Assembly: GCA_026388255.1 (NCBI GenBank)
Contig: JAPLKC010000027.1
Span: 1 to 37,509 of the forward strand
DNA length: 37,509 bases
From: Pseudomonadota bacterium
Lineage (GTDB): Bacteria > Desulfobacterota > Syntrophorhabdia > Syntrophorhabdales > Syntrophorhabdaceae
Direction of reading: 5' to 3'
Part shown: one piece after another, positions 1,076 through 26,555 of the stretch
Layout of the letters: each line of letters starts with the position of its first letter
How positions within the stretch are numbered: the stretch's first letter is position 1
Translations under genes and position numbers: made by a program
Notes under the pieces: model-generated
The model's database searches: none
What the model saw: only the letters and a program-made list of their open reading frames with translations
What the model was told of the DNA's origin: nothing

Positions 1076-2404
1076 ATGACTAAGATAATTGGAGTTATCA
1101 CAGCACGAATATTGTCTAATCAATTTCCTCCGAATATGGTTATGGAGGATATTGCAGGCAAAACAAGTTTTGCCCACCATGTTGAAAGGTTAAGCCGAGT
1201 GAAAGGTATTGATGGTATTTTTCTTGCTACGTCGAAAAACCAAGAAAACAAACCCCTTATCGAAGAAGCTGATAAACTTGGTTGCGGTTGGTATGAAGGC
1301 GACGAGGATGATGTTGTTGAACGGCATATCGCATTATGTGAACGCGAAGGTGCTGAAGCGGTGATAAGAGTTACCGGTAATTGCCCGTTATTTGATATTG
1401 ATAGCCCAACTGCTTTTGTTAAAGAGTTTAAAAGACAATATCATGATTTTATATATGTATCTAATTTATCAACTATTTATGGAACGCTTTCAGAACTCAT
1501 ATCATATAATGCCTTATTGGAAGTGCATAAGCACTATGAGGGGGCAGCGGTTAGCTTATATATTAGGAAAAATATGGAGTTATTTGACACTTTTGGAATT
1601 GAAATAGATGAAAGTCTTTGTCGGCAAGAATATAGGTTGATACTTGATAAGCAGCCCGATTTAGATATCGTAAGACGTATATATAATGATCTATATAAAG
1701 GCAGCCCGCTGAATTTGGGTGAAGTTTATATGTGGCTTGATGATAATCCAGAGATAGCCCATATTAATAGGGATATCAAAGCGCATAGTATTAATATCCA
1801 AGTAGCGAATCTGATGGAGAAGCCTGTTTATTCTGTAATCAGCTTAGGCAGCAGATATATAATCCTTGATGAACAAAAAAGACCTATTGATCAATCTGAA
1901 TTGGTAAAACGCCTGAGAGCAAAGATTACAGATAAAAGAATTGCACATAGAGGTCGTAAGCTTGATATAAGACCTGCCAATGATGGAGATGCCAAGGATG
2001 TGTTTGATTGGAGAAATAATCCTCAAGTACGCAAAAGTTCTTTTAATACTAATAAAATAAAATGGGAACAACATGAACAATGGTTTAACAATAAATTGCA
2101 AGATCCCCTTGTTGCAACATATATATTTAGTTCCGAAGAAATAAAGTTGGGTTCAATACGTTTCGAAGAAAAGGACAGTGGAATCTGGGTTAGTGTTATG
2201 CTTAACCCTGGTTATGTCCGTAAAAAACTTGGAGCACAACTTATCAAACTTGCTACAGAAAAGTATATTCGTGAAAAGAAACCGGAAAAACAAATTATTG
2301 CCGAAGTTAAAGCTAACAACATAATATCTAATAAAACCTTTTTAAAAGCAGGATACGAAGAAAGCCATATTGTATATGCATTTCGTCAAAACGAGGTGGT
2401 ATGA
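1076..2404 (+). CDS. SpsF-like cytidylyltransferase domain (degenerate) fused to GNAT acetyltransferase
   Basis: Residues 1-240 follow the SpsF/CMP-sugar synthetase fold; residues 296-442 are a GNAT domain with the PseH-type opening LDIRPANDGDAKDVFDWRNN. PseH-like enzymes N-acetylate the 4-amino group of the pseudaminic precursor, which suits the position between pseG and pseI. In the first domain the usual nucleotide-binding loop AR..S.R.P.K reads ARILSNQFPPN, so Arg is Gln16 and Lys is Asn20. The usual TGDCP reads TGNCP, with Asn102 replacing the Asp. The cytidylyltransferase may therefore be inactive or altered. The gene looks AT-richer than its neighbours. SD AAAGGAACGAG precedes the ATG. 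It overlaps pseI by 4 nt (ATGA). Domain calls are firm; loss of activity is inference. Confidence 0.8.
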   Translation: MTKIIGVITARILSNQFPPNMVMEDIAGKTSFAHHVERLSRVKGIDGIFLATSKNQENKPLIEEADKLGCGWYEGDEDDVVERHIALCEREGAEAVIRVTGNCPLFDIDSPTAFVKEFKRQYHDFIYVSNLSTIYGTLSELISYNALLEVHKHYEGAAVSLYIRKNMELFDTFGIEIDESLCRQEYRLILDKQPDLDIVRRIYNDLYKGSPLNLGEVYMWLDDNPEIAHINRDIKAHSINIQVANLMEKPVYSVISLGSRYIILDEQKRPIDQSELVKRLRAKITDKRIAHRGRKLDIRPANDGDAKDVFDWRNNPQVRKSSFNTNKIKWEQHEQWFNNKLQDPLVATYIFSSEEIKLGSIRFEEKDSGIWVSVMLNPGYVRKKLGAQLIKLATEKYIREKKPEKQIIAEVKANNIISNKTFLKAGYEESHIVYAFRQNEVV

Positions 2405-3474
2405 ACAAGCCAATAAAAATCAATGAACATTTGATTGGCTCGCAATATCCTCCTTTTATTGTGGCTGAAATGTCCGGGAACCACAATCAGTCTCTGGAGA
2501 GTGCTTTTAAAATCGTTGAAGCTGCTGCTATGGCAGGCGTCCATGCAGTGAAGCTCCAAACCTATACTGCTGATACAATTACAATAGATGCTGATTCCAG
2601 TGATTTTTTTATTGATGACCCGGAAAGTCTATGGAAAGGTCAGTCGCTTTATAAGTTATATCAGCAGGCATATACACCCTGGGAATGGCATGGACCTATA
2701 TTTAAACGTTGTCAAGAACTCGGTATTATTGCATTCAGTACGCCTTTTGATGAAACGGCTGTTGATTTTCTCGAAAGCCTTAATGTCCCGGCGTATAAGA
2801 TTGCATCATTTGAAAATAATCATCTGCCTTTAATCAAAAAAGTTGCCTCGACGGGAAAACCCTTGATCATATCGACAGGTATGGCAACGGATATTGAAAT
2901 TCAAGAAGCGATCCAGACTGCACAGAACGCAGGGTGCCGTGATATTATTTTGCTTAAATGTACGAGTACATACCCGGCAACACCGGAAAACACTAATCTT
3001 ATGACCATTCCGGATATGAAGGAGCGTTTCCGGGTACATGTTGGTATTTCCGATCATACGCTCAGTATCGGCGTCAGCATTGCTGCAGTTGCCTTGGGAG
3101 CAGTTATTATTGAGAAACATTTAACTGTGGCAAGATTGGAGGGTGGCGTAGATGCAGCCTTTTCGCTTGAGCCAATGGAAATGAAATCTCTTGTTGAGGA
3201 AACTGAAAAAGCCTGGCAAGCTCTTGGAAGAGTTCATTATGGGCCTGTCGATGAAGAAAAGCCGTCGCTCAGGTTTAGACGTTCAATTTATATTGTTAAG
3301 AACATAAAAAAAGGACAAAAATTTACATCTGAAAATATAAGAATTATTCGGCCGGGACTGGGTATGCATCCGAGATATTACGAAGAAACCCTGGGTCAGA
3401 AAGCTGCGTGCAATATCAAAAAAGGAATGCCTCTGAATCGTGAATTTATAGATAAGGATCAACATACTTCGTAA
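2401..3474 (+). CDS. pseI: Pseudaminic acid synthase (NeuB/SAF family)
   Basis: The enzyme condenses phosphoenolpyruvate with a 2,4-diacetamido-trideoxy hexose to give the nine-carbon nonulosonic acid in the cytoplasm. The N-terminal TIM barrel shows PPFIVAEMSGNHNQSLE, close to PseI rather than to generic NeuB, then VKLQTYTADT, FSTPFDETAVDFLE and HLTVARLEGGVDAAFSLEP. The C-terminal SAF (antifreeze-like) domain covers about residues 295-350 (FRRSIYIVKNIKKGQ onward). The length of 357 aa is normal for the family (about 340-360). The start overlaps the stop of the upstream gene in ATGA, and GAGGTGG lies just upstream. Legionaminic-type synthases share the fold, but the NHNQSLE segment favours the pseudaminic type. 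Confidence 0.9.
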   Translation: MNKPIKINEHLIGSQYPPFIVAEMSGNHNQSLESAFKIVEAAAMAGVHAVKLQTYTADTITIDADSSDFFIDDPESLWKGQSLYKLYQQAYTPWEWHGPIFKRCQELGIIAFSTPFDETAVDFLESLNVPAYKIASFENNHLPLIKKVASTGKPLIISTGMATDIEIQEAIQTAQNAGCRDIILLKCTSTYPATPENTNLMTIPDMKERFRVHVGISDHTLSIGVSIAAVALGAVIIEKHLTVARLEGGVDAAFSLEPMEMKSLVEETEKAWQALGRVHYGPVDEEKPSLRFRRSIYIVKNIKKGQKFTSENIRIIRPGLGMHPRYYEETLGQKAACNIKKGMPLNREFIDKDQHTS

Positions 3475-3487
3475 GGGAATGCCATAA

Positions 3488-5464
3488 ATGAAAAAAAAGT
3501 GTCTTGTTATTTACCGTCTTACCATGCCTGCCATGTTATATATTACTATCCGCAGGTTGTTCGGGGACTATGATGTCTATTACCTGGATATGCATAATGT
3601 TTACAGAGATGTACAAAAAATAAAAAGCCTTGAGGAAAGAGGGATCAAATGGGTGAAAAGGGAATATCAACATTTTTCTCAATACCTTGCAGGTATGTTT
3701 GATGCGGTGGCATACGCAGAACATATATACGAAAAGATACGTTTATCACATCTGAACAAAGCCATATCAAATGCCCTCTTGGAAAACGATTCACAGAGAG
3801 AGAAGATGGATGTTTTCTGGAAGTACTATATATATCGCATGATATGGCCCTTTGCAGAGCAATACGCCGCAGCCAGATATCTTGCGGGTACTGGTATATA
3901 TGACCAGGTAACTGTTATTGCATTCAATTCCCTTGCTTCTTTTTTAAGGGAAAGGCTTGAAAGTAACATAAAGGTAAGAATTCTTCCGGGCCTTGATTTC
4001 TATAAAGGTTATACAAGGATTTTAAAAGAATATGGCCGAAGCTTTTTCAACAGGGGGATTGGTTTCTTTCGTGGCCACAAATCGAAACAGAGTCCAGTCA
4101 AAAATGGCTGTTATGAAAAGAGCCCTCATCTTCAGGATATTGAGGATTATGAAGTTATTTATTTTCCTCACCAAGGAGTATTCTACAGTGATCTCTTCAC
4201 TAAAGATCAGTTTTACAGTAATGATGTCGATTCTCCTCTCCATAAATCAAAAATTCTTCATATTTCGCTCGGTGAAAAAGATGAAAAATATATGGCAGAG
4301 AACTATAAGTTCTATAATGAAAACAAAATACCCTATACAGATCTTTATGAAATAAATTACGATAAAAGTGCTCCAAGAAAGAAGGTTATAGACCTTTTCT
4401 TTCAGCTTAAGGTTAAGCTTTTTTCGGACATAATACACTACAGCTTCTGGTATATTATGTATGCCTTCTACCTCTATTTTACTGTTGAACGTTACCGGTC
4501 GGTATTTTCCAGTTTTAAAAATCTAAAAGTTGCCCTTGTAGGATACGATCATCTATTTCAGAGATACCTTTCTATTGCTCTTACCACAACAGGTACTAAG
4601 GTCTGCGCTACCCAGGAGAGGCTTATTTTTGCATTTTGGCCGGACAATTATTACATATTTGATTACTATTTTGTTGCAGGGAGGGCTGCAAAGGAAGAAG
4701 GTCTGAAAACCAGTTATATCGATTATTGTATACCTGTCGGGATGATGAGAGAAGATAAACTCTACGAATATGAAAAATTGCAGATCTATGATGAAAAATA
4801 TGACAGGATAAAAGAAAAAAAGAAACTTATACTTGCCCTTGATTACCACATGCCCGACAACGAGATAGAAGATGCCACTCGTCAAGCCGCAAAAATTCAC
4901 CAGACAAGGCAATTTTATAGGGATCTCATCAGGCTTTCCAGGAAATTCCCCTCACTTCATATTGCCATAAAAGGCAAAATATCCGACCTTTACAAAAGCC
5001 CTTTTATAAAAGATCTTGTTGAGGAGATAGGTGATCTTGATAATATGGAGATTGAGCTTAATTTAAAAAAGTACAACCCTTATTTTATTACCGAGAAAGC
5101 GGATTTAACCATAGCTTGCCACACATCTCTTGCAGATGAACTATTGGCGGCTGGTAGAAAAGTAATTTTTTATGAGACGACAGACCTTATGGAAACGCTC
5201 CTTGTATATGATAATCTGCCGATTATTGTTAAAGATTACGAAGGGTTGGCATATCATGTAAACAATTTCATCAATGGCCATTACTTGGATGAAGAGAAGA
5301 TAAAAGCATTGCAGGAAAAATTTTACGCTGATTGTTTCCATGGAAAAGCGCAAAAGATCGTTCAGGAAATGCTCGAAAAGATTATCAGGGACGGTTATTT
5401 AGACGAAAATAACGTCAAAGCCATTTTAAATGATCCAGAAATTCAAAAAGCAAATGAAGCTTAA
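3488..5464 (+). CDS. Large putative glycosyltransferase of a surface-polysaccharide locus, family not recognised
   Basis: This 658-aa protein has no domain I can name with certainty. The N-terminal half (1-210) is rich in aromatic and charged residues; residues about 315-335 (IIHYSFWYIMYAFYLYFTV) form a hydrophobic stretch that could be a membrane-attached helix. The C-terminal half resembles a GT-B nucleotide-sugar-binding domain: VALVGYDH, CATQER, KKLILALDYHMPDN, a LHIAIKGK strand, then KADLTIACHTSLADELLAAGRKVIFYE. That last stretch matches the acceptor/donor loop pattern of capsule or CDP-glycerol type transferases, where a Ser/Thr in a CxTS turn is followed by a small-residue helix. Its place directly after pseI makes it a candidate transferase for the CMP-nonulosonate. 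SD AAGGGAATG precedes the ATG. Confidence 0.55.
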   Translation: MKKKCLVIYRLTMPAMLYITIRRLFGDYDVYYLDMHNVYRDVQKIKSLEERGIKWVKREYQHFSQYLAGMFDAVAYAEHIYEKIRLSHLNKAISNALLENDSQREKMDVFWKYYIYRMIWPFAEQYAAARYLAGTGIYDQVTVIAFNSLASFLRERLESNIKVRILPGLDFYKGYTRILKEYGRSFFNRGIGFFRGHKSKQSPVKNGCYEKSPHLQDIEDYEVIYFPHQGVFYSDLFTKDQFYSNDVDSPLHKSKILHISLGEKDEKYMAENYKFYNENKIPYTDLYEINYDKSAPRKKVIDLFFQLKVKLFSDIIHYSFWYIMYAFYLYFTVERYRSVFSSFKNLKVALVGYDHLFQRYLSIALTTTGTKVCATQERLIFAFWPDNYYIFDYYFVAGRAAKEEGLKTSYIDYCIPVGMMREDKLYEYEKLQIYDEKYDRIKEKKKLILALDYHMPDNEIEDATRQAAKIHQTRQFYRDLIRLSRKFPSLHIAIKGKISDLYKSPFIKDLVEEIGDLDNMEIELNLKKYNPYFITEKADLTIACHTSLADELLAAGRKVIFYETTDLMETLLVYDNLPIIVKDYEGLAYHVNNFINGHYLDEEKIKALQEKFYADCFHGKAQKIVQEMLEKIIRDGYLDENNVKAILNDPEIQKANEA

Positions 5465-6232: not shown

Positions 6233-8071
6233 ATGACAAAGTTTGCGATGCAGGAAAAAGACATAAGCGATATAAGGATAATGGTCTGGTTCTTGAGACC
6301 TTATTGGTTCAAGGCGCTTTTTGTGTTCACACTACTTTTTGTATATGCATTCTTTGAGACGTTGAGTGTAGGTGCATTATATCCTTTTGTAAGCAGGATA
6401 CTTTCTAAAGGCGATTCAACAGCACAATACGGTGGGAAAATATTGGAATATCTCGATTCGGTCTCGTCATTGCTGCCCGTTGATGATAAACTCATTGCTG
6501 CAAGCCTGTTCCTTCTCGTATTGATCATTTTCAGCCGGATTTTCGGGATTATATCGGAAAGTGCATCACTCTGGTATCATTTACGACTCCATGCTGATCT
6601 CCAAAATAAGATTTTCCAGAAAATACTTCTGAATCAATATGGTTATTTTCACACCAGGAAACACGGAGACCTTATGTATATCGGCGGGGAAGCATCTCAG
6701 TCTGTGGGTGAAATGTTTTTTTATTTCCCTAAAGCCGGCGTAGAATTTTTCAGAATTATCATAATAACCGTTCTTTTGCTCACGATTTCAATAAAATTTA
6801 CCTTCCTGATGTACTTGGTTATCGCCGGGTTCAGTATTATTGTCTATATACTTTCAAATAAGATTATCAATCCTTCTGCAAAGAGGGTCCAGGTAGCACG
6901 TTCAAATATTATGTCGCTCTTCTCGGAATCATTTTCCGGTATAAGGCAGATAAAGCTTTTTGACAATTACAAATACTGGTTTGAAAAGTTGAAAAAAGAG
7001 ACGGCTATCGCACGAAAACAACAATTTACATATACTGCGCCGGCATATTTTTCTTCACATTTAATACTGTCGGTTGGTTCTTTAAGCACGGTTTTAGCTA
7101 TTATTTATGCCAAGCTCTATACGCCGTACAGTTTTACCATGATTTTCCCTATCATTATTGTTTATGTAGGTGCATTAATGAGGCTCATGCCTTCTGTCAA
7201 GGAAATTGCGCATCAGTGGATGGGACTCAAAGGACTGGCACCGCGCATCCGCATTACCTATGAAACGCTGGCCGATACACGATATGAGATGGATGATAAT
7301 GGAGAAGAGTTCCCTGGTTTAGCGGGCGAAATAAGGTTGAGTAACGCTTCCTTCTCCTATCCCACAAGACAGGATGTCCTGAAAAATATCAATATCATGA
7401 TACCGAGAAACCATACGGTTGCTATTGTTGGAGAATCAGGGTCCGGAAAATCAACTTTGGCCGATATACTGCTTCGTTTGTATGTACCTTCTGAAGGTAA
7501 GATATTCATTGATGGGATTGATTACCAGCATTATTCGCGTACTTCATGGTTAAGACATTTAGGGATTGTAAGTCAGGATCCCTTCATATTCCACGCTTCT
7601 GTAAAAGATAACATCAAGATAGGTAAACTTAATGCTACTGATGAAGAAATTATAGATGCAGCAAGAATTGCCAATGCCCATCAGTTCATTATGGAACTGC
7701 CTGAGAGATATGATACAATTGTAGGTGACCGGGGAATGACATTGTCAGGAGGGCAATGCCAAAGAGTGGCCATTGCAAGGGCACTGATAAAAAACCCTGA
7801 AATACTTATCCTTGATGAAGCTACAAGCTCTTTAGACAATATTTCTGAGAAAACGATACAGGATTCTCTTAGAGAGGTAGCAAAAAGCAGGACAACAGTT
7901 GTGATTGCACATAGACTTTCAACAATTGAGCATGCCGATAAAATCTTTGTTATGAAACAAGGAGAGATTGTGGAAGAAGGGACGCATGAAAGTTTGCTTG
8001 AAAATCGCAGTTATTACCACTCTCTTTATCAGAGAGAGAAAGAAGGGGAAGCAGGGACAAATTGTATATGA
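6233..8071 (+). CDS. ABC-type lipid-linked glycan flippase (PglK/MsbA-like)
   Basis: This is a half-transporter with an N-terminal type IV exporter membrane domain (about residues 20-325, roughly six hydrophobic helices) and a C-terminal ATPase. ATPase motifs are Walker A GESGSGKST, signature LSGGQCQRVAIARAL, Walker B ILILDEATSSLD and switch VVIAHRLST. It most likely works as a homodimer in the inner membrane, flipping a lipid-linked oligosaccharide or glycolipid. The GT neighbours on both sides favour a PglK-like glycan flippase over a drug exporter. The length of 612 aa is normal. No clear Shine-Dalgarno precedes ATG 6233; the in-frame ATG at 6248 is an alternative. Confidence 0.88.
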   Translation: MTKFAMQEKDISDIRIMVWFLRPYWFKALFVFTLLFVYAFFETLSVGALYPFVSRILSKGDSTAQYGGKILEYLDSVSSLLPVDDKLIAASLFLLVLIIFSRIFGIISESASLWYHLRLHADLQNKIFQKILLNQYGYFHTRKHGDLMYIGGEASQSVGEMFFYFPKAGVEFFRIIIITVLLLTISIKFTFLMYLVIAGFSIIVYILSNKIINPSAKRVQVARSNIMSLFSESFSGIRQIKLFDNYKYWFEKLKKETAIARKQQFTYTAPAYFSSHLILSVGSLSTVLAIIYAKLYTPYSFTMIFPIIIVYVGALMRLMPSVKEIAHQWMGLKGLAPRIRITYETLADTRYEMDDNGEEFPGLAGEIRLSNASFSYPTRQDVLKNINIMIPRNHTVAIVGESGSGKSTLADILLRLYVPSEGKIFIDGIDYQHYSRTSWLRHLGIVSQDPFIFHASVKDNIKIGKLNATDEEIIDAARIANAHQFIMELPERYDTIVGDRGMTLSGGQCQRVAIARALIKNPEILILDEATSSLDNISEKTIQDSLREVAKSRTTVVIAHRLSTIEHADKIFVMKQGEIVEEGTHESLLENRSYYHSLYQREKEGEAGTNCI

Positions 8072-8143
8072 TTGATTCTTTTTATCATCACACAAGCATT
8101 TTGGGCTGCCCATGGGTTATTCAAAATTAAAAGAGGATTGAAA

Positions 8144-9871
8144 ATGGATTCTGATAAGCTTCCACATTTTGATATTTTGGATTGTACAATAAGAGATGGC
8201 GGGTACTTAAACAATTGGCGTTTTGATGCAAAAATGGTGCGGGAAGTATACCGTGCGCTCTCTAAGGCTGGTGTTGATATTGTTGAAATTGGATTTAGAG
8301 GGACAGACAAATATTTTAACAGAAATGAATTCGGTCCCTGGAGATTTACCGATATAAAAGACCTGAAAGAAGTAGTTGGGGGTATCAAAGGTGCCAGGCT
8401 TGCAATCATGGGGGACTATGGAAAGCTTGATGTCGAAGATTTTACAGATGATTATAGGGAGTATGTTGATTTTATCAGGATTGCCGTACATAAGGACGGT
8501 ACACCCGGGGCAATCAGACAGCTTGAAGAAATTAAGAAGAAAGGATTTGAGGTATCTCTGAATGCTATGGGTATTACGGGCTATACCGGAGAAGAAACGC
8601 AAGAATTGGTCAAGATGCTTGCGGATTCCGATATAGATTATATATATATTGCAGACAGTTATGGTTCAATTCTGCCGGATCAGATGCGACAGCTCGTTGA
8701 GCCTTTTTTGGGGCTTAAGCATATAAAGATCGGTTTTCATCCCCACAATAGTTTACAGATGGCTTTTGCGAATACCCTTGAAGCAATAAAGTGTGGTGTT
8801 GATATCATTGACGGTACAATATACGGTATGGGCCGGGGTGCTGGAAATCTTCCTACAGAGGTTATACTCTCATATCTTCAGCTTTCAACAACGGATAAGT
8901 ACAATGTTATCCCCATATTGCACTGTATAGACAGGTTTTTTACAAACATTCAAACAGATGAGCCCTGGGGATATCAGCTTCCGTATATGCTCTCAGGCAT
9001 ATTTCAGTGCCATCCTTATTATCCCAAAACACTTGTAGATTACCGCGAGTTTTCAATGGAAGATATCTGGAAAGCCCTTGAAGTTTTACGCAAGATAAAC
9101 CCTGTCGGTTTTTCAAAAGATATTCTTGATGATATCATAAAGAGTGGCATGATAGGCGGTCTTAGAAAGGGTAAGATAGGTGAAGGGAAATCTGTTGATG
9201 CAAATAAGCAGAGGGAGAGGACAATTGAGGTCCCATATAAAGATCTGTATAAGGGGAGGGATTTTCTCTTACTGGCCAACGGTCCTACCCTGAAGGAGTA
9301 TGGAACGAAGATTGATGAATTTATCAAGAAGTATAATCCTGTAATCCTTGGCGCTAATTATCTTTCCGGTTTATTCAAACCACATTATCATTCCTTTAAC
9401 AACAAAAAGAGGTTTGTAGATTATATTGATACTGTTGACAACAATGCGGTTTTGTTGCTTGGAGAAAACTTTCCGGACGATATGATCAGGGAATATACAT
9501 CCAGGAGTTATGAAACCCTTTATTTTAATGATGAACTGAATGATTTTGATATTATTGACGGAGTGATCCAGTCTAATTGCAGGACAATTGCGGTATTACT
9601 TATGGGTGTGGCCATTGTTATGGGTGCAAACAGAATATTTGCCGTAGGAATGGACGGTTATGCCGGTTCAGAGTTGAAAGAGGGTTTTCATTTTTATGAC
9701 GAAAAGGTTGAGCCCGAAGAAAAAGACCTTGTTATTGAGCGTCACCGCTATAACCAGCATTTTATTGAGCAGATTGATGAATACCTGAATAGCATAGGAA
9801 AAGAGGGCATACATATACTTACTCCCACAAGCTATAAGGCCTTTTATAAAGGGATAGAAAATTACCTCTAA
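8144..9871 (+). CDS. DRE-TIM pyruvate aldolase fused to a DUF115-like domain
   Basis: Residues 9-350 resemble 4-hydroxy-2-oxovalerate aldolase (HMGL-like DRE-TIM family). They show the DCTIRDGGYLNNW opening with catalytic Arg-Asp at 17-18, the metal-binding HPH at 199-201, and DGTIYGMGRGAGN at 223 onward. Known members join pyruvate enolate to an aldehyde or cleave the reverse. Residues about 370-575 are a second domain with DFLLLANGPTLKEY and IFAVGMDGY, like the DUF115/MptE-like domain that binds phosphorylated or nucleotide substrates. An upstream TTG at 8072 keeps the frame open, but ATG 8144 has AAGAGG 8 nt upstream and begins right before the barrel. It probably opens the sugar-acid cassette with the next genes. 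Domain calls are good; the substrate is unknown. Confidence 0.82.
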   Translation: MDSDKLPHFDILDCTIRDGGYLNNWRFDAKMVREVYRALSKAGVDIVEIGFRGTDKYFNRNEFGPWRFTDIKDLKEVVGGIKGARLAIMGDYGKLDVEDFTDDYREYVDFIRIAVHKDGTPGAIRQLEEIKKKGFEVSLNAMGITGYTGEETQELVKMLADSDIDYIYIADSYGSILPDQMRQLVEPFLGLKHIKIGFHPHNSLQMAFANTLEAIKCGVDIIDGTIYGMGRGAGNLPTEVILSYLQLSTTDKYNVIPILHCIDRFFTNIQTDEPWGYQLPYMLSGIFQCHPYYPKTLVDYREFSMEDIWKALEVLRKINPVGFSKDILDDIIKSGMIGGLRKGKIGEGKSVDANKQRERTIEVPYKDLYKGRDFLLLANGPTLKEYGTKIDEFIKKYNPVILGANYLSGLFKPHYHSFNNKKRFVDYIDTVDNNAVLLLGENFPDDMIREYTSRSYETLYFNDELNDFDIIDGVIQSNCRTIAVLLMGVAIVMGANRIFAVGMDGYAGSELKEGFHFYDEKVEPEEKDLVIERHRYNQHFIEQIDEYLNSIGKEGIHILTPTSYKAFYKGIENYL

Positions 9872-10005
9872 TACCATGCTGTCTTCGTCTGCCCATCTTT
9901 GTTGTCTCCTCCTTACACTCCTAGATTTACTAGTGTGGTACGCCTGCGTCGGTTCGTCGTCGGCGCCTCGATGTGCTTTTGAATACAAAATAGTATAAAA
10001 AACCT
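9872..10005. repeat. Probable dispersed palindromic intergenic element
   Basis: This gap is clearly GC-richer than its surroundings around 9935-9972, and holds tandem GTCGG/CGTCG motifs plus an imperfect stem CACTCCTAG / CTAGTGTG around ATTTA (about 9915-9935). It ends in GCTTTTGAATACAA (9975-9988), which recurs as GCGTTTGAATACAA in the gap at 923-936. The look is that of short palindromic elements scattered between genes in related genomes; I cannot confirm copy number from one window. A minus-strand frame running through it is not a credible gene. Confidence 0.4.
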
Positions 10006-11013
10006 ATGACAGACCGCTACCAGGAATTAAGAAAACTTTTTCAGGAACGGAAACTTTTTAAACTTGTCTGTGGTGCAGGAAACGAGGACCTTACCGAGGT
10101 GAGGAGACTTGCAACAATATACACCCTTGCTGGTGCGGCCATGCATGATCTTTCTGCTAATGTGGATGTTGTTGAGGCGGCGAAAAAAGGTATAAAGACT
10201 GCGTACGAACTGGCTCCCATGATGGACAGAAAGATAGCTCTTCGGCCTTTCCTCAATGTTAGCATAGGTATCAAAGGAGACCCTCATGTGCGTAAAGCAC
10301 AAATAGACAAAAAAGTCTGTACATGTTGCGGTAAGTGCATCGATGTTTGTAGACAGGAGGCAATAGAAGAAGACTTTATTATACAGGAATTCCGGTGTAT
10401 CGGCTGCGGCGACTGTGAAAAGGCCTGTGCTTTTGAGGCAATTAACTTTATCCATAAAAAGGCGGATTTTGACAAAATACTCCCTGAATGTGCCAGAGCG
10501 GGAGTTGAAACTATGGAACTCCATGCTGTTACTGAAGATGATGATGCGGCAATAAGGGACTGGAGGCTTCTCAATAGGATTATAAAAGATAATTTTGTCA
10601 GCGTATGCCTTGACAGGTCGTTGCTATCGAATAAACGTATTATAGAACGTATTGAAAAAATGTACGAGATTACCGGTGAGCGCATGATAGTTCAGGCAGA
10701 CGGTGTGCCCATGAGCGGCGAAGGGGACGATTTTAATACCACATTACAGGCAGTGGCTTGTGCTGATGTTGTAATGAAAAGCGGCATGCCTGTCATGGTT
10801 CTTCTTTCAGGTGGAACAAACAGCAAAACCGGCACCCTTGCAAGGCAGTGCGGTGTTTTTGCGCATGGTGTTGCTGTGGGCAGTTTTGCCAGAAAGATTG
10901 TAAAGCCTTTTGTGATGCGGGATGATTTTGATGCTGATTTTGATATCATAAAAGAGGCTGTCTCTGTAGCTGAAGACCTTGTCCGACTGAACCTGGAAGA
11001 CATCCATGGTTGA
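10006..11013 (+). CDS. LdpA-like protein with two [4Fe-4S] ferredoxin motifs
   Basis: The N-terminus (FKLVCGAGNEDLTEVRRLAT followed by a TLAGAAMHDLSA segment) and C-terminus (QADGVPMSGEGDDFNTT, LLSGGTNSKTGTLARQCGV, GVAVGSFARKIVKPF) match the cyanobacterial LdpA family as I remember it. Two CxxCxxCxxxC motifs lie between them: Cys105/108/111/115 and Cys131/134/137/141. Each should bind a [4Fe-4S] cluster. In cyanobacteria LdpA senses redox for the clock; that role is unlikely here. The place between an aldolase and a HAD phosphatase suggests a redox or TIM-barrel-like enzyme of sugar-acid synthesis. No Shine-Dalgarno is visible before ATG 10006. The stop overlaps the next start by 8 nt. The family call is by recall, the function is unknown. 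Confidence 0.72.
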   Translation: MTDRYQELRKLFQERKLFKLVCGAGNEDLTEVRRLATIYTLAGAAMHDLSANVDVVEAAKKGIKTAYELAPMMDRKIALRPFLNVSIGIKGDPHVRKAQIDKKVCTCCGKCIDVCRQEAIEEDFIIQEFRCIGCGDCEKACAFEAINFIHKKADFDKILPECARAGVETMELHAVTEDDDAAIRDWRLLNRIIKDNFVSVCLDRSLLSNKRIIERIEKMYEITGERMIVQADGVPMSGEGDDFNTTLQAVACADVVMKSGMPVMVLLSGGTNSKTGTLARQCGVFAHGVAVGSFARKIVKPFVMRDDFDADFDIIKEAVSVAEDLVRLNLEDIHG

Positions 11014-11782
11014 CTTACTTGTAGGGAAAGCCATTATCGATGATGTCCGTGTAATTATCTTCGACAAGGATGGAACCCTTATAGAGCTTTATCATTACTG
11101 GTCTAAGATGGTGGAACTCAGGGCGAGACTTATTTGTGAAAGACTGTCACTTGATAACATACATGTAAAGAATATTTCCTATGAAATGGGGGTTGATGAT
11201 AATACCGGCAGGCTCAGACCGGATGGCCCGGTAGGTCTCAAGAAGCGGGAAATAGTTATGCAGGCTGCTATAGATTATCTCGCAGGTCTGGGATATAAAG
11301 AAACATACAACCTTTGTTTCAATATCTTTAAAGAAGTGGATGAGTTTACTTCCAGCGATCTCAAGGGATTCGTAAAACCCATATCCGGTGCAAAAGAGCT
11401 TGTGAGAAAAGCCTCTAAAAACGGATGCAAAATAGCTGTTGCTACGACAGACAGACGGGAAAGAGCGGGACTGGCAATGAACTTTATAGGAATTGGTGAT
11501 GTTGTTGACATGATTGTTGGTGCAGACGATGTGTCCAGACAGAAACCTGATCCTGAGCAGGTATACATGATCCTTAATACCTTTGGTATAGACCGGTCGC
11601 ATGCTGTCATGGTTGGTGATGCCCTAACTGATGTCGAGATGGGGATAAACGCTGGTGTGAAGGCCTCAATCGGTCTTTTGACAGGTTTTGCAACATATGA
11701 ACAACTTATGAAAACTACACCCTATGTGGCTGACGATATTTCAAAAATAGAAATAATAACAAGGGATGGTGACAAGCCATGA
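11006..11782 (+). CDS. HAD-superfamily sugar phosphatase
   Basis: The catalytic loop is IIFDKDGTL with nucleophile Asp20 and acid Asp22. Motif II is AVATTD (Thr147/148), motif III Lys180 in RQKPDPEQ, and motif IV GDALTDVEMG with Asp205 and Asp209. The large insert between motifs I and II (about 100 residues) is a C1-type helical cap, as in phosphoglycolate phosphatase. The neighbours (two pyruvate-type aldolases and a KdsB-like enzyme) suggest it removes a phosphate from a ulosonate phosphate, filling the slot that KdsC fills in Kdo synthesis; this is inference. It overlaps the upstream gene by 8 nt, and the next start by 4 nt (ATGA). SD GGAAGA lies about 8 nt before the ATG. Confidence 0.85.
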   Translation: MVDLLVGKAIIDDVRVIIFDKDGTLIELYHYWSKMVELRARLICERLSLDNIHVKNISYEMGVDDNTGRLRPDGPVGLKKREIVMQAAIDYLAGLGYKETYNLCFNIFKEVDEFTSSDLKGFVKPISGAKELVRKASKNGCKIAVATTDRRERAGLAMNFIGIGDVVDMIVGADDVSRQKPDPEQVYMILNTFGIDRSHAVMVGDALTDVEMGINAGVKASIGLLTGFATYEQLMKTTPYVADDISKIEIITRDGDKP

Positions 11783-12558
11783 AAAACACACTTAAAAATA
11801 CGCTGAAAAAAGGCAATGTGGTCTATGGCCCCTGGTGTACGATTCCCTCTGCTGCGGTTGTTAATGTAATTGCCGCTACAGGGGTAGATTTTATAATTAT
11901 TGACATGGAGCACGGATCTCATAATATAGAGACCGTTGAAAATATGATACGGGCTGCTGAAGTCGAAGGATGTTTTTCGATAGTGAGGGTGGCGAAAAAC
12001 GACGAGGCATTGATATTAAGCGCTCTTGATATCGGCGCCTGTGGAGTAATCGTCCCCCATATCGAGTCTAAGGAAGATGCTGAACTGGCAATTTCTTATA
12101 CGAAATATTACCCATTAGGAACAAGAGGTTTTTCGCCATTTACAAGAGCCGGCGGGTATTCGCTCCACAATGTGAAAGGTCACGCTGAAAAACAGAACAA
12201 AGAAACGTCGCTGATCCTTCTTCTTGAAGGCAAGGCGGGTATCGGGAACCTCGAAGACATCCTTTCTATTGAAGATGTTGAAACAAAAGTTGATGCCATA
12301 TATATCGGTGCATACGATCTTTCACAGGCGCTCGGTGTTCCCGGCCAGGTGGATCATCCTGATGTGAGGAGCACCATGGAGATATGTATAGCCAGGATCA
12401 ATAAAAGTGGAATTGCCGCAGGCGGGTATGTGGCAAAGGATGAGAACGATATCCGGTGGATGCGTGATATGGGCATGCAGTTAATCACCCTTCTGCCAGA
12501 TTGTACCATGATTTACCATGCCTTTGAGAGGTTTTACCATGATTTCAGGAAGAGATGA
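11779..12558 (+). CDS. HpcH/HpaI-family pyruvate aldolase
   Basis: This is a metal-dependent class II aldolase barrel of 259 aa, normal for the family. Landmarks are IIDMEHG (44-46 region), SIVRVAKND with Arg70, GVIVPHIESKEDA, GTRGFSPF, Glu150 in LLLEGKAGIGN and Asp180 in YIGAYDLS. The Glu and Asp are the metal ligands in HpaI and the 2-keto-3-deoxy-L-rhamnonate aldolase group. Known members join pyruvate with an aldehyde to a 4-hydroxy-2-oxo acid, or cleave it. Placed just before a CMP-ulosonate-synthetase-like gene, a synthetic role making a 3-deoxy-2-ulosonate is likely (inference). The usual E...AVxN reads EGKAGIGN, so specificity may be altered. The start overlaps the upstream stop by 4 nt. 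Confidence 0.88.
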   Translation: MKNTLKNTLKKGNVVYGPWCTIPSAAVVNVIAATGVDFIIIDMEHGSHNIETVENMIRAAEVEGCFSIVRVAKNDEALILSALDIGACGVIVPHIESKEDAELAISYTKYYPLGTRGFSPFTRAGGYSLHNVKGHAEKQNKETSLILLLEGKAGIGNLEDILSIEDVETKVDAIYIGAYDLSQALGVPGQVDHPDVRSTMEICIARINKSGIAAGGYVAKDENDIRWMRDMGMQLITLLPDCTMIYHAFERFYHDFRKR

Positions 12559-12597
12559 AAATCACCTTTATGAAATATTAATTTTAGGGGGTGGGAT

Positions 12598-13335
12598 ATG
12601 AAGATTGTCGGTATGGTCCCGGCAAGGCTTCAATCAAGCAGGCTGCCTGAAAAAGCCCTTATAGATATAGAAGGTCTGCCCATAGTCATCCATACCTGTA
12701 AAAGAGCCAAGCTGGCCGGAAAACTCGAAGAAGTTTACCTTGTAACGGATAGTGAGAAAATAAGAGAAGCGGGAGAGTTCCACAGCATTAAGGTCATCAT
12801 GACAGGAACGCATCACAGAAGCGGTTCCGATAGACTTGCAGAGGCGTGTACTTATATTGAGTGTGATATTGTAGTAAATATCCAGGGCGACGAACCCCTT
12901 GTTGTGCCTGAACATATTGACGCAATTGTTGATCCCCTTGTGCTGGATCCTGCTGTCCAGATTGCTGTTGGGGTTACACCCTATAAAAAAAGAGGCAGCA
13001 CCTCTGATATTAAGGCTGTTTTAGACCTTGAGGGCAATATTATGTATTGTTCCCGTAACGATCTGCCAAGCGATGCACGAAGTACAGTAAATGAGATGTT
13101 TAAGATGTGTTTTATAGTTCCATTCAGGAAGGGGTTTCTCCTCCAGTACACATTGTGGGAACCGACGCCCCTTGAAACCATTGAATTCAACGAGTACCTC
13201 CGGGTGTTGGAACATGGCGTGAAGATGCGCGCTGTTAAGATCGACAATGCCAGGATCAGTGTCGACACCCCTGAAGACCTTGCGATTGTGCGCGAGATGA
13301 TGAAGGAAGATACAATCAAGCACAGATATATGTGA
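12598..13335 (+). CDS. KdsB-like CMP-3-deoxy-ulosonate cytidylyltransferase
   Basis: The family activates Kdo or related 3-deoxy-ulosonates with CTP. All key motifs are present: PARLQSSRLPEKAL (Arg10, Arg15, Lys19), HHRSGSDRLAEA in place of KdsB HxSGTDR, VVNIQGDEPL with the metal-binding Asp98, and SVDTPEDL near the C-terminus. The length of 245 aa is typical. The KdsB tail E..EQLR.LE.G reads EFNEYLRVLEHG, a small change that may mark a different ulosonic acid. Placement behind two aldolases and a phosphatase, rather than with lpxK or kdsA, points to a specialised paralogue. A G-rich stretch AGGGGGTGGG precedes the ATG. Confidence 0.85.
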   Translation: MKIVGMVPARLQSSRLPEKALIDIEGLPIVIHTCKRAKLAGKLEEVYLVTDSEKIREAGEFHSIKVIMTGTHHRSGSDRLAEACTYIECDIVVNIQGDEPLVVPEHIDAIVDPLVLDPAVQIAVGVTPYKKRGSTSDIKAVLDLEGNIMYCSRNDLPSDARSTVNEMFKMCFIVPFRKGFLLQYTLWEPTPLETIEFNEYLRVLEHGVKMRAVKIDNARISVDTPEDLAIVREMMKEDTIKHRYM

Positions 13336-13344
13336 TTTTTTTAG

Positions 13345-15159
13345 ATGAATAAACTTGCCATCATTCATAGCAGCCTGTCCAACGAAAAGATAAGCTCTTT
13401 TTTGAAGATTTCGGGTTGTACGAAGTGGTTGCCTTTAATAAGTGATTATGAGAGGGTACGTGAGCTTGAAGAGGTTCTTGCAGGTGCAGAAAAAATTTGT
13501 GATATAAGCGGTGATCTCCAGGACACGGCAGACTTACTCAGAAGGCCATTCTATGAAGTGACAGCAGAATTAGGAGTAAAGTATAACTCTCTTGAATGGT
13601 GGGCTAACAACATATCCGAGCGAAACACCATGAAGTGTAATCTTTTTCTCCACTGCTGCTATTGTTATATTTTTTCCCGCAAAATGGAGGAGGGAGAAGA
13701 TTTTTGTGTTATATCGGACAGCCGCGCTGTTATAAAAAATATCACGGACATTGCCGAAAAAAAAAGAATGGATGTAATAAGTAAAACCCCTTTAGTTATT
13801 ATGGATGGTAGGTTTGGAGCTTTTATTGATGGGCTTTATAAACTGATCCTGCATCTTAGCGTTTTTGCTTTGACAAGACTGAACAGGTTCTATCACAGGA
13901 CAATAACGGAAAGATGGAAACCCTTAAAAAATCCTGATGTAGTCCTTCATACATGGGTAGACGAGAAATGTTTTGGTCCGGAAGGCCAGTTCAGGGATCG
14001 CTATTTTACTGTTCTGCCCGATTATTACCGGAGTAAAGGCGTTAATAAAGCAACTTTTGTTACTTTTTCTTACCGTAATATTACCCGTTCCCTATGGGAT
14101 GCCTTTTCTTTTCTCCATACCAATAAAGAGGATTTTATCGTTCCACGGGATTATTATCATATTGGGGACTACCTGTTTCCTTTCATGTTACGTTTTAAAC
14201 AACGCCGTTTTATTTTTCAGCATATTATTTTAAAGGGTGTTGATTGTTCCATGCTGTTTTATGAGTATCATCGGAACGAACCCATTCACTTCGAGGCAAT
14301 GTATTACCTGCTCATTAAAAGACTTGCAAATCAAGGCATAAAGCCTAAAGTGCTGATTGACGGGTTTGAGAATATGATAACCGATAAGATGATCCAGCTT
14401 GGGGTACGGGAATTTATGCACGGGACAGAGGTATATGGTTTTTTTCATGTGGCGCCGCCTCCTCATGTACTTAGTTTTTTTACCGACATTGGCGAATATG
14501 ACGTTGCTCCTCTGCCGGACAGGATCATATGCAATGGCCCAAAATACAAGGATATCCTTGCAAAGGAACACTTCCCTGAAGAACGGATTTTTGTAGGTGC
14601 CGCACTTCGGTATCTATATCTTCATAACATTAAAAAGGCATCCGGTGATAGACACGACAATTTTATAATTTTAGTTGTTTTGCCAATTGAAAAAGAGGTA
14701 GTAATAGAGCTTTTCTATAAGCTTAAGGCAGCAATCGGGGGGATTGATCATTACCGGATGATCCTGAAGCCTCACCCCATGGAGACGACGATCATCGAAA
14801 AGATTAAAGGCGATTTCCTCCCCGATACGGAAGTTTTTACCGGCGGGATGGATGAGGCGCTAAAAAAGTGTGATATTGTAGTCAGCGCTGCCACAGGAGC
14901 TGTTCTTGATTGTGTTATGGCTGATAAAGAGGTAGTCAGGGTTGGGAGAAGCACACAGATTGACTTTGATCCCCTGGCGTGGTTTGAGGAATTCGGCAGG
15001 CCATGCAGCAGCATAGATGAATTAAGAAAAAAACTTATTGACGCTGAGAAAAGAATAAAAAGTCAATCTTATGAAAAGCCCAAGTATTCCGCAATGCTCC
15101 CGGAACTTTTTTCTCCGATGACAGAGGAGACCATGAAGCCATTTCTCCCACCCGGCTAA
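13345..15159 (+). CDS. Large surface-carbohydrate transferase, GT-B-like (putative ulosonate transferase)
   Basis: This 604-aa protein resembles the large surface-carbohydrate biosynthesis proteins of Leptospira-type O-antigen loci, by recall. The C-terminal half is GT-B-like: REFMHGTEVYGFFHVAPPPH, then PDRIICNGPKY, RIFVGAALRY, YRMILKPHPMETT and CDIVVSAATGAVLDCVMADKEVVRVG. The KPHP turn and the later Ser/Thr-rich loop recur in capsule, polysialyl and CDP-glycerol type transferases that use CMP- or CDP-linked donors. The N-terminal 300 residues match nothing I know. It begins 9 nt after the KdsB-like gene, so transfer of that CMP-sugar is the simplest guess. A TTTTTTAGATG context gives no clear Shine-Dalgarno, suggesting coupling. 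Confidence 0.6.
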   Translation: MNKLAIIHSSLSNEKISSFLKISGCTKWLPLISDYERVRELEEVLAGAEKICDISGDLQDTADLLRRPFYEVTAELGVKYNSLEWWANNISERNTMKCNLFLHCCYCYIFSRKMEEGEDFCVISDSRAVIKNITDIAEKKRMDVISKTPLVIMDGRFGAFIDGLYKLILHLSVFALTRLNRFYHRTITERWKPLKNPDVVLHTWVDEKCFGPEGQFRDRYFTVLPDYYRSKGVNKATFVTFSYRNITRSLWDAFSFLHTNKEDFIVPRDYYHIGDYLFPFMLRFKQRRFIFQHIILKGVDCSMLFYEYHRNEPIHFEAMYYLLIKRLANQGIKPKVLIDGFENMITDKMIQLGVREFMHGTEVYGFFHVAPPPHVLSFFTDIGEYDVAPLPDRIICNGPKYKDILAKEHFPEERIFVGAALRYLYLHNIKKASGDRHDNFIILVVLPIEKEVVIELFYKLKAAIGGIDHYRMILKPHPMETTIIEKIKGDFLPDTEVFTGGMDEALKKCDIVVSAATGAVLDCVMADKEVVRVGRSTQIDFDPLAWFEEFGRPCSSIDELRKKLIDAEKRIKSQSYEKPKYSAMLPELFSPMTEETMKPFLPPG

Positions 15160-24623: not shown

Positions 24624-24644
24624 TTCCATAACTTTGAGGTGAAA

Positions 24645-26555
24645 ATGACTTGTTGGTACATGATGATTGCAGATGTGCTTTTAACACTGACTTCAATTGT
24701 GTTCAGTCTTATGCTTCGTTTGGAGATTTCTAACCCCGGTTATTTGTTCAGCCGATATTTTCAGTCAATTTGGCCGTTTACCATCATGGCTGTCATTGTG
24801 AGACCTGCTTTGTTCTATGCAGCAGGCATGTACCGGCGCATCTGGAGATATGCAACGCCCCGCGATTTTATAATCTTAGTCGGTGCTGTTCTTGCCGGAT
24901 CCATTATACTTTTTTCTGTAACGGTCTTTGTTTTTACTCCGAATCTGATTGATGTTTTTCCAAGATCAATATTTGTCCTGGAAGCAATCCTCAGTATTTT
25001 GCTTCTCGGTGGCATCAGGGTACTCATAAAGGTATCGGAAAGCTACTCAGGCGATATTGATTGGAAAAAGTCCGACATTGTTAATAATAAGCGGGTTTTA
25101 ATAGTTGGTGCAGGAAATACTGGAATCAACATAGCGAGGGAGCTGAAAAATAACCTGCAACTGGGTATGAAAATTTGTGCATTTCTCGATGACGATCCAA
25201 AAAAGATAGGCATGAAAACGCAGGGTATCCCTGTATTCGGGCCTCTTATAAAACTATCCGATGTTGTTAAAAAGCATGATATTGATGAGGTTATTATTGC
25301 TATATCCGAAGCACCGGAACAGACTATAAAAAATGTCCAGTATATGTGTCAGAATATCCCCGTAGCCTTTATGACCATGCCTTCTTTGAGCAGTTTCATT
25401 GAAGGAACTGAAGAGTGGGGAGATATACCATCTTCTTCATTAAAACTTCCTATGGCAATGCCGGATATTACCGCTGAAGAAATAAAGGCTGTTGTGCGTG
25501 TAATGCAATCGAGGAATCTCAGCATCGGTTCTCAAACGCTCGAGTTTGAACGGCTGATCGCATTGCAGGCAAACGCTAAATACGCAGTGGCAGCGACTAA
25601 CGGCACCTCTGCCCTTCATCTGTGCATGATAGCTGCCAATATAAAACAAGATGATGAAGTAATTACAACGCCATTCAGTTTTATCTCATCTGCAAACTGT
25701 ATACTATATGAAAGGGCAAAACCGGTATTCGTCGATATTGATCCGGTTAGTTATAATATAAATTCCCATAAGATTGAAGCTGCAATTACGAAAAGGACCA
25801 AGGCTATTCTCGTTGTTCATATTTTTGGTCAGCCTGCAGATATGGACACTATCCTTGAAATTGCCGATAGATACAATCTCGTTGTCATCGAAGATGCATG
25901 TGAAGCAGTCGGGGCGGAATATAAAGGTAAGCGGACAGGCGCCATAGCAAAAGCAGGTGTCTTTGCTTTTTATCCGAATAAGCAGATGACAACCGGCGAA
26001 GGGGCGTGTCTCGTAACCAATGATGAGGAGTGGGCAGCGCTATTCAGGAGTCTTAGAAACCAGGGCAGGGATAAATTTGACGGGTGGCTCAATCATTCAA
26101 GGCTTGGTTATAATTACCGTATGTCGGAGATAAATGCAACCTTAGGGGTTGTTCAGTTAAAACGGCTCGATGAATTTCTCAAGAAAAGAAATATTGTGGC
26201 AAGTGAGTATAGCAAAGCACTTTCATCTTTTGAAGATTTGAGCCCGCTCAAGATAGTTCCAACAACAACCCGGATGAGTTGGTTTGTATATGTCGTGCGT
26301 TTATCACCTGGTATTGACAGAGATCATGTTATTAGAGAAATGGAAAAAAACGGTATCCCGACAAGGCCTTATTTTACACCTATCCATCTTCAGCCCTTTT
26401 ATATGGACCTATTTGGTTTTAAGGAAGGAGATTTCCCTGAAGCTGAGGCAGCAGGTAAGTCAGTCATTGCCCTCCCTTTTTACACGAATATGAAAGTAGA
26501 AGAAATTAATGTTGTTTGCCGTGCATTGAAAGATGTTTTAGCCGGGATGAAATAA
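24645..26555 (+). CDS. PglF/CapD-type membrane module fused to a DegT-type aminotransferase
   Basis: Residues 5-130 contain four membrane helices like those of PglF/WbpM/CapD. Residues 150-258 are the following Rossmann domain (RVLIVGAGNTGINIARELK, AFLDDDPKK). The SDR dehydratase domain that normally comes next is absent. At about residue 265 (DNA about 25434) a complete aminotransferase begins at LKLPMAMPDITAEEI, with TNGTSALHL, TPFSFISSANC, VVIEDACEAVGAEYKG and the PLP lysine Lys448 in FYPNKQMTTGEGA (counting from GTG 24639). It probably anchors transamination of a nucleotide-4-keto sugar at the inner membrane next to the phosphoglycosyl transferase. GTG 24639 is an alternative start; GAGGTG precedes ATG 24645. 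No frameshift is seen at the junction. Confidence 0.85.
   Translation: MTCWYMMIADVLLTLTSIVFSLMLRLEISNPGYLFSRYFQSIWPFTIMAVIVRPALFYAAGMYRRIWRYATPRDFIILVGAVLAGSIILFSVTVFVFTPNLIDVFPRSIFVLEAILSILLLGGIRVLIKVSESYSGDIDWKKSDIVNNKRVLIVGAGNTGINIARELKNNLQLGMKICAFLDDDPKKIGMKTQGIPVFGPLIKLSDVVKKHDIDEVIIAISEAPEQTIKNVQYMCQNIPVAFMTMPSLSSFIEGTEEWGDIPSSSLKLPMAMPDITAEEIKAVVRVMQSRNLSIGSQTLEFERLIALQANAKYAVAATNGTSALHLCMIAANIKQDDEVITTPFSFISSANCILYERAKPVFVDIDPVSYNINSHKIEAAITKRTKAILVVHIFGQPADMDTILEIADRYNLVVIEDACEAVGAEYKGKRTGAIAKAGVFAFYPNKQMTTGEGACLVTNDEEWAALFRSLRNQGRDKFDGWLNHSRLGYNYRMSEINATLGVVQLKRLDEFLKKRNIVASEYSKALSSFEDLSPLKIVPTTTRMSWFVYVVRLSPGIDRDHVIREMEKNGIPTRPYFTPIHLQPFYMDLFGFKEGDFPEAEAAGKSVIALPFYTNMKVEEINVVCRALKDVLAGMK

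Follow-up and report, generated by a model that had tools for sequence, protein, structure and literature searches.

Two pyruvate aldolases and a KdsB-like synthetase in a conserved cassette that may make a CMP-activated 3-deoxy-2-ulosonic acid other than Kdo

Introduction

Biosynthesis of the well-known bacterial ulosonates activated by cytidine monophosphate (CMP), namely 3-deoxy-D-manno-oct-2-ulosonic acid (Kdo) and the sialic, legionaminic and pseudaminic acids, begins with phosphoenolpyruvate (PEP)-dependent synthases of the KdsA or NeuB type. Six consecutive genes in a Syntrophorhabdaceae genome (assembly GCA_026388255.1; 3.8 Mb, 98% complete) raise the question of whether such a sugar can also be built from pyruvate by aldolases. 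The window analysed here is the 37,509-nucleotide contig JAPLKC010000027.1 (contig C27 of the genome), in which the six open reading frames (ORFs) are collinear on the forward strand at 8144–15159, several neighbours sharing a few bases. They are, with their Pfam or NCBIfam matches:

8144–9871, +: DRE-TIM metallo-aldolase with an MptE-like/CST-I-like C-terminal domain, hereafter the DRE protein (HMGL-like, 3.5e-27)
10006–11013, +: LdpA-like protein (LdpA_C, 1.2e-15, plus 4Fe-4S)
11006–11782, +: haloacid dehalogenase (HAD) phosphatase (HAD, 6.9e-26)
11779–12558, +: HpcH/HpaI class II pyruvate aldolase, hereafter HpcH (HpcH_HpaI, 5.3e-30)
12598–13335, +: predicted KdsB-like CMP-ulosonate synthetase of a cassette-specific group (CTP_transf_3, 1.1e-38)
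13345–15159, +: putative glycosyltransferase of the GT-B fold (TIGR04326, 3.9e-22, and no other family)

These assignments agree in place and family with a preliminary description of the DNA, which had proposed that the genes make an unlisted ulosonic acid. We propose, with a probability of roughly 0.6, that the first five genes form a cassette for the synthesis and CMP activation of a 3-deoxy-2-ulosonic acid other than Kdo, destined for a surface glycan; the reactions and the sequence in which they run are predictions, as are substrates and product.

Co-inheritance and distribution of the cassette

Judged from gene neighbourhoods, the DRE, LdpA-like, HAD, HpcH/HpaI and KdsB-like genes are a conserved mobile cassette. 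The block is retained in this order in three relatives (L008, L009 and L010), which in the searched collection are metagenome-assembled genomes (MAGs) of Syntrophorhabdaceae type, even with different flanks; in L010 the block is 56–75% identical, the following gene just 28%, and the ABC transporter is absent. The LdpA, DRE and HpcH genes co-occur in an identical set of 10 of the 39 family genomes, and a cassette-type KdsB (71–100% identity) is present in nine of these ten, the tenth contig stopping before the KdsB position. None of the four genes was found in the remaining 29 family genomes, nearly all of which have an ordinary KdsB at 30–35%. Under independence, one shared pattern among C(39,10) has p ~1.6e-9, with the caveat that the genomes are not independent. 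Such patchy, all-or-none occurrence is typical of exchanged glycan cassettes, and it contradicts a chance neighbourhood, which was dropped as an explanation.

An alignment of LdpA-like proteins, used as a query over 84,980 species, matched at least 80 loci, the neighbours of which were typed by tblastn and hidden Markov models; scans with a single-protein LdpA query gave no matches, nor did a search of plasmids. HAD, DRE, HpcH and KdsB occur together in MAGs assigned to Omnitrophota, Elusimicrobiota, Bacteroidota, Pseudomonadota, Actinomycetota (Microthrix), Micrarchaeota and Methanomicrobiales, in a Parcubacteria MAG without HpcH, and partially in Chloroflexota and Planctomycetota MAGs. By MAG assignment, which is open to binning errors, especially with archaeal contigs, carriers span about 10 phyla, including Thermodesulfobacteriota and archaea, and glycan-locus neighbours recur. 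The preliminary description had named absence of the gene set from other genomes as one result that would speak against it; the set is instead conserved in glycan loci of many phyla. A search of the open-access full-text literature returned no paper on such a cassette.

Some loci carry additional genes. Radical S-adenosylmethionine (SAM)-like proteins of one family (F14, CxxxCxxC) are encoded in or beside at least eight cassette loci (L008, L017, L018, L019, L020, L022, L023 and L025), and in L008, the window's closest relative, such a gene (7813–9354) separates HpcH from KdsB. Prochlorococcus single-cell genomes (L039, L046, L052, L057 and L060) have a divergent set, in which an LdpA with Fe-S motifs is followed by a second LdpA-like protein lacking them; some of these sets add KdsB-like, HpcH and HAD genes, a second HpcH-like gene (F13) and a gene without assigned function (F34).

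The KdsB-like synthetase

Against the KdsB equivalog TIGR00466, the window protein scores 152.5 bits (cut-off 155.2) and its cassette relatives 140–176 bits. There is no KdsA in the window cassette; the same genome encodes a KdsA on another contig (C44, 382.9 bits) and elsewhere, at 240 bits, a further KdsB. KdsA is likewise above cut-off in the cassette genomes of lipopolysaccharide (LPS) type, most of which have two KdsB copies, one housekeeping (187–293 bits) and one in the cassette (140–176 bits). No KdsA match was obtained in the Parcubacteria, Methanomicrobiales, SI034, Microthrix, Acidimicrobiales, Chloroflexi and Magasanikbacteria genomes, in which gaps are possible since they are MAGs; six of these seven have a KdsB-like gene, the exception being Magasanikbacteria.

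One branch of the KdsB tree (81/90) parts the cassette proteins from the housekeeping ones, which is not decisive by itself. Residues on the nucleotide side are common to both groups (P8, R10, R15, K19, D98, E99 and D223), and the switches from housekeeping to cassette proteins lie mostly in the sugar-side domain (K27L, A148I, P155D, Y174V, L198N, Q200Y and G221S). The C-terminal domain of KdsB is the site of Kdo binding (PMC3149649). On the evidence of these alignments, the cassette proteins stand apart from housekeeping KdsB as a group of their own, and their sugar-side domain is consistently altered.

The aldolases, the phosphatase and the transferase

HpcH residues E44, H45, R70, E150 and D180 are present in at least 95% of 27 sequences, and their counterparts in AbHpaI are Glu46, His47, Arg72, Glu151 and Asp177 (PMC8560999). 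Family relatives include 2-keto-3-deoxy-L-rhamnonate and 2-dehydro-3-deoxyglucarate aldolases. In the HAD protein, D20, D22, T147, K180, D205 and D209 (the DxD, Thr, Lys and DxxxD elements) are invariant in 37 sequences. By these residues, the HpcH and HAD active sites are intact.

The best-scoring subfamily for the DRE protein is 4-hydroxy-2-oxovalerate aldolase, at 115.9 bits against the TIGR03217 equivalog, under its 286-bit cut-off, and the best solved relatives are 3dxi, a 'putative aldolase' (5e-45), and DmpG (1nvm, 6e-24). Its aldolase part covers residues ~1–310 (the annotated start at 8144 follows the homologue in L008). R20, D21 and H202/H204 (numbered from a start at 8135) are conserved, and the protein retains the R-D, H-x-H and GMGRGAGN motifs. 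The residue that follows RDGG in the window protein is Tyr; 15 of 16 CMP-type cassettes have Tyr here, and 6 of 7 cassettes of a sister type that encode a thiamine diphosphate (ThDP) enzyme have His (Fisher p 3e-5, uncorrected for relatedness). The RDG-adjacent His of DmpG and BphI presumably has a catalytic role. This difference suggests that the CMP- and ThDP-type cassettes probably differ in acceptor. Apart from this one His-to-Tyr change, both proteins keep the active sites of pyruvate aldolases, in support of the earlier reading that such aldolases would take the place of a PEP-dependent synthase.

The C-terminal domain of the DRE protein (~214 residues, 9227–9868) matches Pfam MptE-like (PF01973) above cut-off in the homologues in L022 and L029, and has weak matches to CST-I sialyltransferases and 6-hydroxymethyl-pterin pyrophosphokinase. 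It is also found in the ThDP-type cassettes, which have no CMP-synthetase, so CMP-sugar transfer is not its general role.

The 604-residue protein at 13345–15159 is modelled as a GT-B fold with a mean predicted local distance difference test (pLDDT) of 90.2, matching NeuC/WecB-type epimerases, MurG (Z 12.6) and TarM over residues ~195–604. NeuC/WecB-type epimerases have the same GT-B fold as glycosyltransferases. Based on this model, we consider the protein a candidate ulosonate transferase, the CMP-ulosonate as its donor being predicted.

The LdpA-like Fe-S protein

LdpA takes its name from a clock role in cyanobacteria, and the family is known mainly from that protein. The window protein scores 158.7 bits against the NF045992 equivalog, under the 450-bit cut-off. 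Its cysteines (C105/108/111/115 and C131/134/137/141) form two C-x2-C-x2-C-x3-C motifs that are present in 81 of 82 relatives longer than 300 residues. The predicted structure (pLDDT 92.9) is a TIM barrel carrying an inserted 2[4Fe-4S] ferredoxin domain, and the structural neighbours listed are ribulose-phosphate epimerase, 2-keto-3-deoxy-6-phosphogluconate (KDPG) aldolase, hexulose-phosphate synthase, TrpA and class II aldolases (Z ~16–17.5); FMN-dehydrogenase (PreA-like) structures were not among the matches listed. These phosphate-type barrels suggest a phosphorylated substrate. The redox step that had been assigned to this protein was not supported, considering the resemblance of the model to phosphate-binding barrels such as these; a redox role is possible.

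LdpA and HAD are the most constant unit of the cassette, and the pair stands alone, without the other cassette genes, in L077, L080, L084 and L085. Among Gastranaerophilales from the gut (L044–L090), many have an LdpA-like gene outside cassettes, often after a conserved protein of ~390 residues (F5), which suggests a further role of the family.

The sister cassette with a ThDP enzyme

At least seven loci have the order LdpA, HAD, DRE, HpcH (L089 without HpcH), followed by a ThDP protein of ~600 residues and no KdsB. The ThDP-type carriers G310 and G311 have the housekeeping KdsB alone. In L089, neighbouring genes encode RfbF (glucose-1-phosphate cytidylyltransferase), RfbG (CDP-glucose 4,6-dehydratase) and RfbH, each above cut-off. 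The best Protein Data Bank match of the L064 ThDP protein is JanthE (8rph, YerE-like) at 456 bits, the next being acetohydroxyacid synthase at 273 bits. In the LdpA tree, a 100/100 branch has all CMP-type cassettes on one side and all ThDP-type cassettes on the other.

Pyruvate is not a substrate of the YerE-type enzyme ErwE, which favours 4-hydroxy-2-oxo acids, and MMAR_2332 is similar (PMC12247030); these donors belong to the same class as the products of pyruvate aldolases. The branch of caryophyllose is 1,3,4,5-tetrahydroxyhexyl (PMC5706390), which, with the C–C bond drawn back, would correspond to a decarboxylated 3-deoxy-2-ulosonate. The simplest reading is one core with two outlets, both requiring a 3-deoxy-2-oxo acid.

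A predicted viral contig from IMG/VR (L092, 5932–15326) encodes RfbF, RfbH, LdpA, HAD, DRE, HpcH, a ThDP enzyme and a short-chain dehydrogenase/reductase amid phage-like small ORFs, and a virus may thus be a carrier of this ThDP-type cassette.

Proposed pathway and alternatives

In the pathway that we propose, the LdpA-like Fe-S TIM barrel would act on a phosphorylated sugar or aldehyde, and its constant partner, the HAD protein, would remove the phosphate. One of the metal-dependent aldolases, the DRE protein or HpcH, or both, would condense the aldehyde with pyruvate. The resulting 4-hydroxy-2-oxo acid (a 3-deoxy-2-ulosonate) would be converted by the KdsB-like enzyme to a CMP-sugar for transfer by the GT-B protein. 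In the sister cassette, the YerE/JanthE-like ThDP enzyme would decarboxylate the 2-oxo acid and ligate it to a CDP-4-keto-dideoxy sugar, in the manner of erwiniose or caryophyllose. The co-inheritance, the spread, the KdsB divergence and the alternation with a ThDP enzyme make an unlisted 3-deoxy-2-ulosonate from pyruvate and an aldehyde the best hypothesis, as had been suggested. The preliminary description had also read the gene order, from condensation to transfer, as that of Kdo synthesis: the logic is similar, but the order is not strictly Kdo-like because the LdpA gene sits between the DRE and HAD genes, and gene order alone does not establish a pathway. A wider claim, which we put a little short of even odds, is that a mobile four-enzyme core with a new class of LdpA-like Fe-S phosphate barrel provides a hitherto undescribed, PEP-independent route to surface keto-sugars in bacteria and possibly archaea, giving ulosonates of varied chain length that are CMP-activated or serve as ThDP donors.

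Several observations weigh against the five-gene proposal. The window KdsB-like protein lies ~3 bits below the equivalog cut-off and several cassette relatives lie above it, so Kdo-like substrates are possible. HpcH is slightly more like 4tv5, which we take to be SbnG, a citrate synthase, than like HpaI, and its reaction may be of Claisen type. In L034, the His/Tyr site of the DRE protein is Leu. The two aldolases do not always occur together locally: HpcH is missing near the cassette in L016, L018, L021 and L089, and DRE is missing in L023 and L026. In L018 (Anammoxibacter), a PseF/NeuA-like CMP-sugar synthetase (11762–12496) occupies the KdsB-like slot directly after LdpA and HAD. Finally, what ties the ThDP-type cassette to the core is its gene neighbourhood rather than biochemistry.

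KdsB being the closest curated family, and several cassette members scoring above its cut-off, would favour synthesis of Kdo or a Kdo isomer through a pyruvate-aldolase bypass of KdsA, the KdsB-like protein being an ordinary CMP-Kdo synthetase. We consider this decidedly unlikely, given that a KdsA and a second KdsB are encoded elsewhere in the genome, that the cassette KdsB is its own group with fixed sugar-side changes, and that the cassette is present in lineages without KdsA. The two aldolases might instead divide the work, one building the ulosonate and the other cleaving a compound to supply the aldehyde, or act serially to make a longer chain; this variant of the five-gene proposal is a tentative one, in keeping with the local absence of either aldolase and with HpcH relatives that cleave 3-deoxy-2-keto acids, and is opposed by the many cassettes that hold both.

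The DRE fusion could also be bifunctional, its CST-I/MptE-like domain either transferring the CMP-sugar or phosphorylating the product of the aldol reaction, with a further sugar added by the GT-B protein. This is compatible with the five-gene proposal and draws on the PF01973 hits and the CST-I and pyrophosphokinase resemblances, but the sequence matches of the domain are weak and we regard it as rather unlikely. Very improbable is a mixture of catabolic or signalling genes, with LdpA as a clock or redox sensor, that came into a glycan locus by accident: the name of LdpA and the catabolic settings in which the aldolase families are best known would fit, whereas the low LdpA-like score, the co-inheritance within the family and the recurring glycan-locus neighbours do not. 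A purely catabolic aldolase set was also considered and dropped.

Relation to known systems

With the Kdo pathway (KdsA-KdsC-KdsB-WaaA), the cassette shares the logic of condensation, phosphatase, CMP activation and transfer, as well as KdsB homology. It differs in having pyruvate aldolases rather than the PEP-dependent KdsA, an extra LdpA-like Fe-S protein, a KdsB with an altered sugar side, a TIGR04326-type GT-B protein and a HAD from a different subfamily. Nonulosonic acid pathways (NeuB/PseI with NeuA/PseF) also deliver a CMP-activated 2-ulosonate to a surface glycan, and one adjoins the cassette upstream; the cassette itself has no NeuB-type PEP synthase, and its synthetase is of the KdsB rather than the NeuA type, L018 excepted. 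YerE-type clusters (yersiniose, erwiniose and caryophyllose) resemble the sister cassette, which combines the core with a JanthE-like ThDP enzyme and RfbF/G/H-type genes, whereas the window has no ThDP enzyme and is predicted to activate the acid with CTP instead.

The cassette aldolases keep the metal- and pyruvate-binding residues of DmpG/BphI and HpaI. Unlike DmpG/BphI, they have no acylating aldehyde dehydrogenase partner, and the DRE protein is fused to an extra domain; the CMP-type DRE protein has Tyr where DmpG and the ThDP type have His. The LdpA-like protein has the LdpA_C domain and Fe-S motifs of cyanobacterial LdpA, but is far under the equivalog cut-off and occurs in sugar cassettes. 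If the proposal is true, a common aldolase route would make more surface sugars predictable from genomes, offer a possible source for the hydroxy 2-oxo acids that serve as donors in erwiniose- and caryophyllose-type sugars, and place the LdpA-like Fe-S family in an enzymatic context.

Genomic context of the window

By its predicted gene content, the window is a locus for a surface glycan. The order is a PseG fragment, a cytidylyltransferase-GNAT fusion, PseI, a methyltransferase, an MsbA-like ABC transporter and then the six genes, followed by DegT, GT2, GT4, two initiating sugar transferases and others. Further features are:

135–881: PseG fragment, scoring above the curated cut-off
2401–3474, +: pseudaminic acid synthase PseI (495.9 bits, cut-off 340), a separate PEP-dependent nonulosonate route
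9873–9990, no strand: intergenic 118-bp dispersed repeat with partial relatives in the same genome
15219–16331, +: DegT-family aminotransferase, a common but inconstant neighbour of the cassette

With both PseI and PseG scoring above the curated thresholds, the pseudaminic-type set noted upstream in the preliminary description is real. Rfam and tRNA searches of the window gave no match, and repeats within the coding region were dismissed as apparent chance matches. The 9873–9990 stretch is a dispersed repeat resembling repetitive extragenic palindromic (REP) sequences or miniature inverted-repeat transposable elements (MITEs), and ~11 partial relatives of it (73–96% identity) lie at other places in the genome. 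It is missing in L008, where the gap is short; a role in the pathway is not thought likely. A single ORF at 24639–26555 joins a WcaJ-like CoA-binding_3 N-terminus to a PseC-like DegT aminotransferase. The 658-residue protein at 3488–5464 has no Pfam or NCBIfam family, is kept in relatives of the locus and is possibly another glycosyltransferase.

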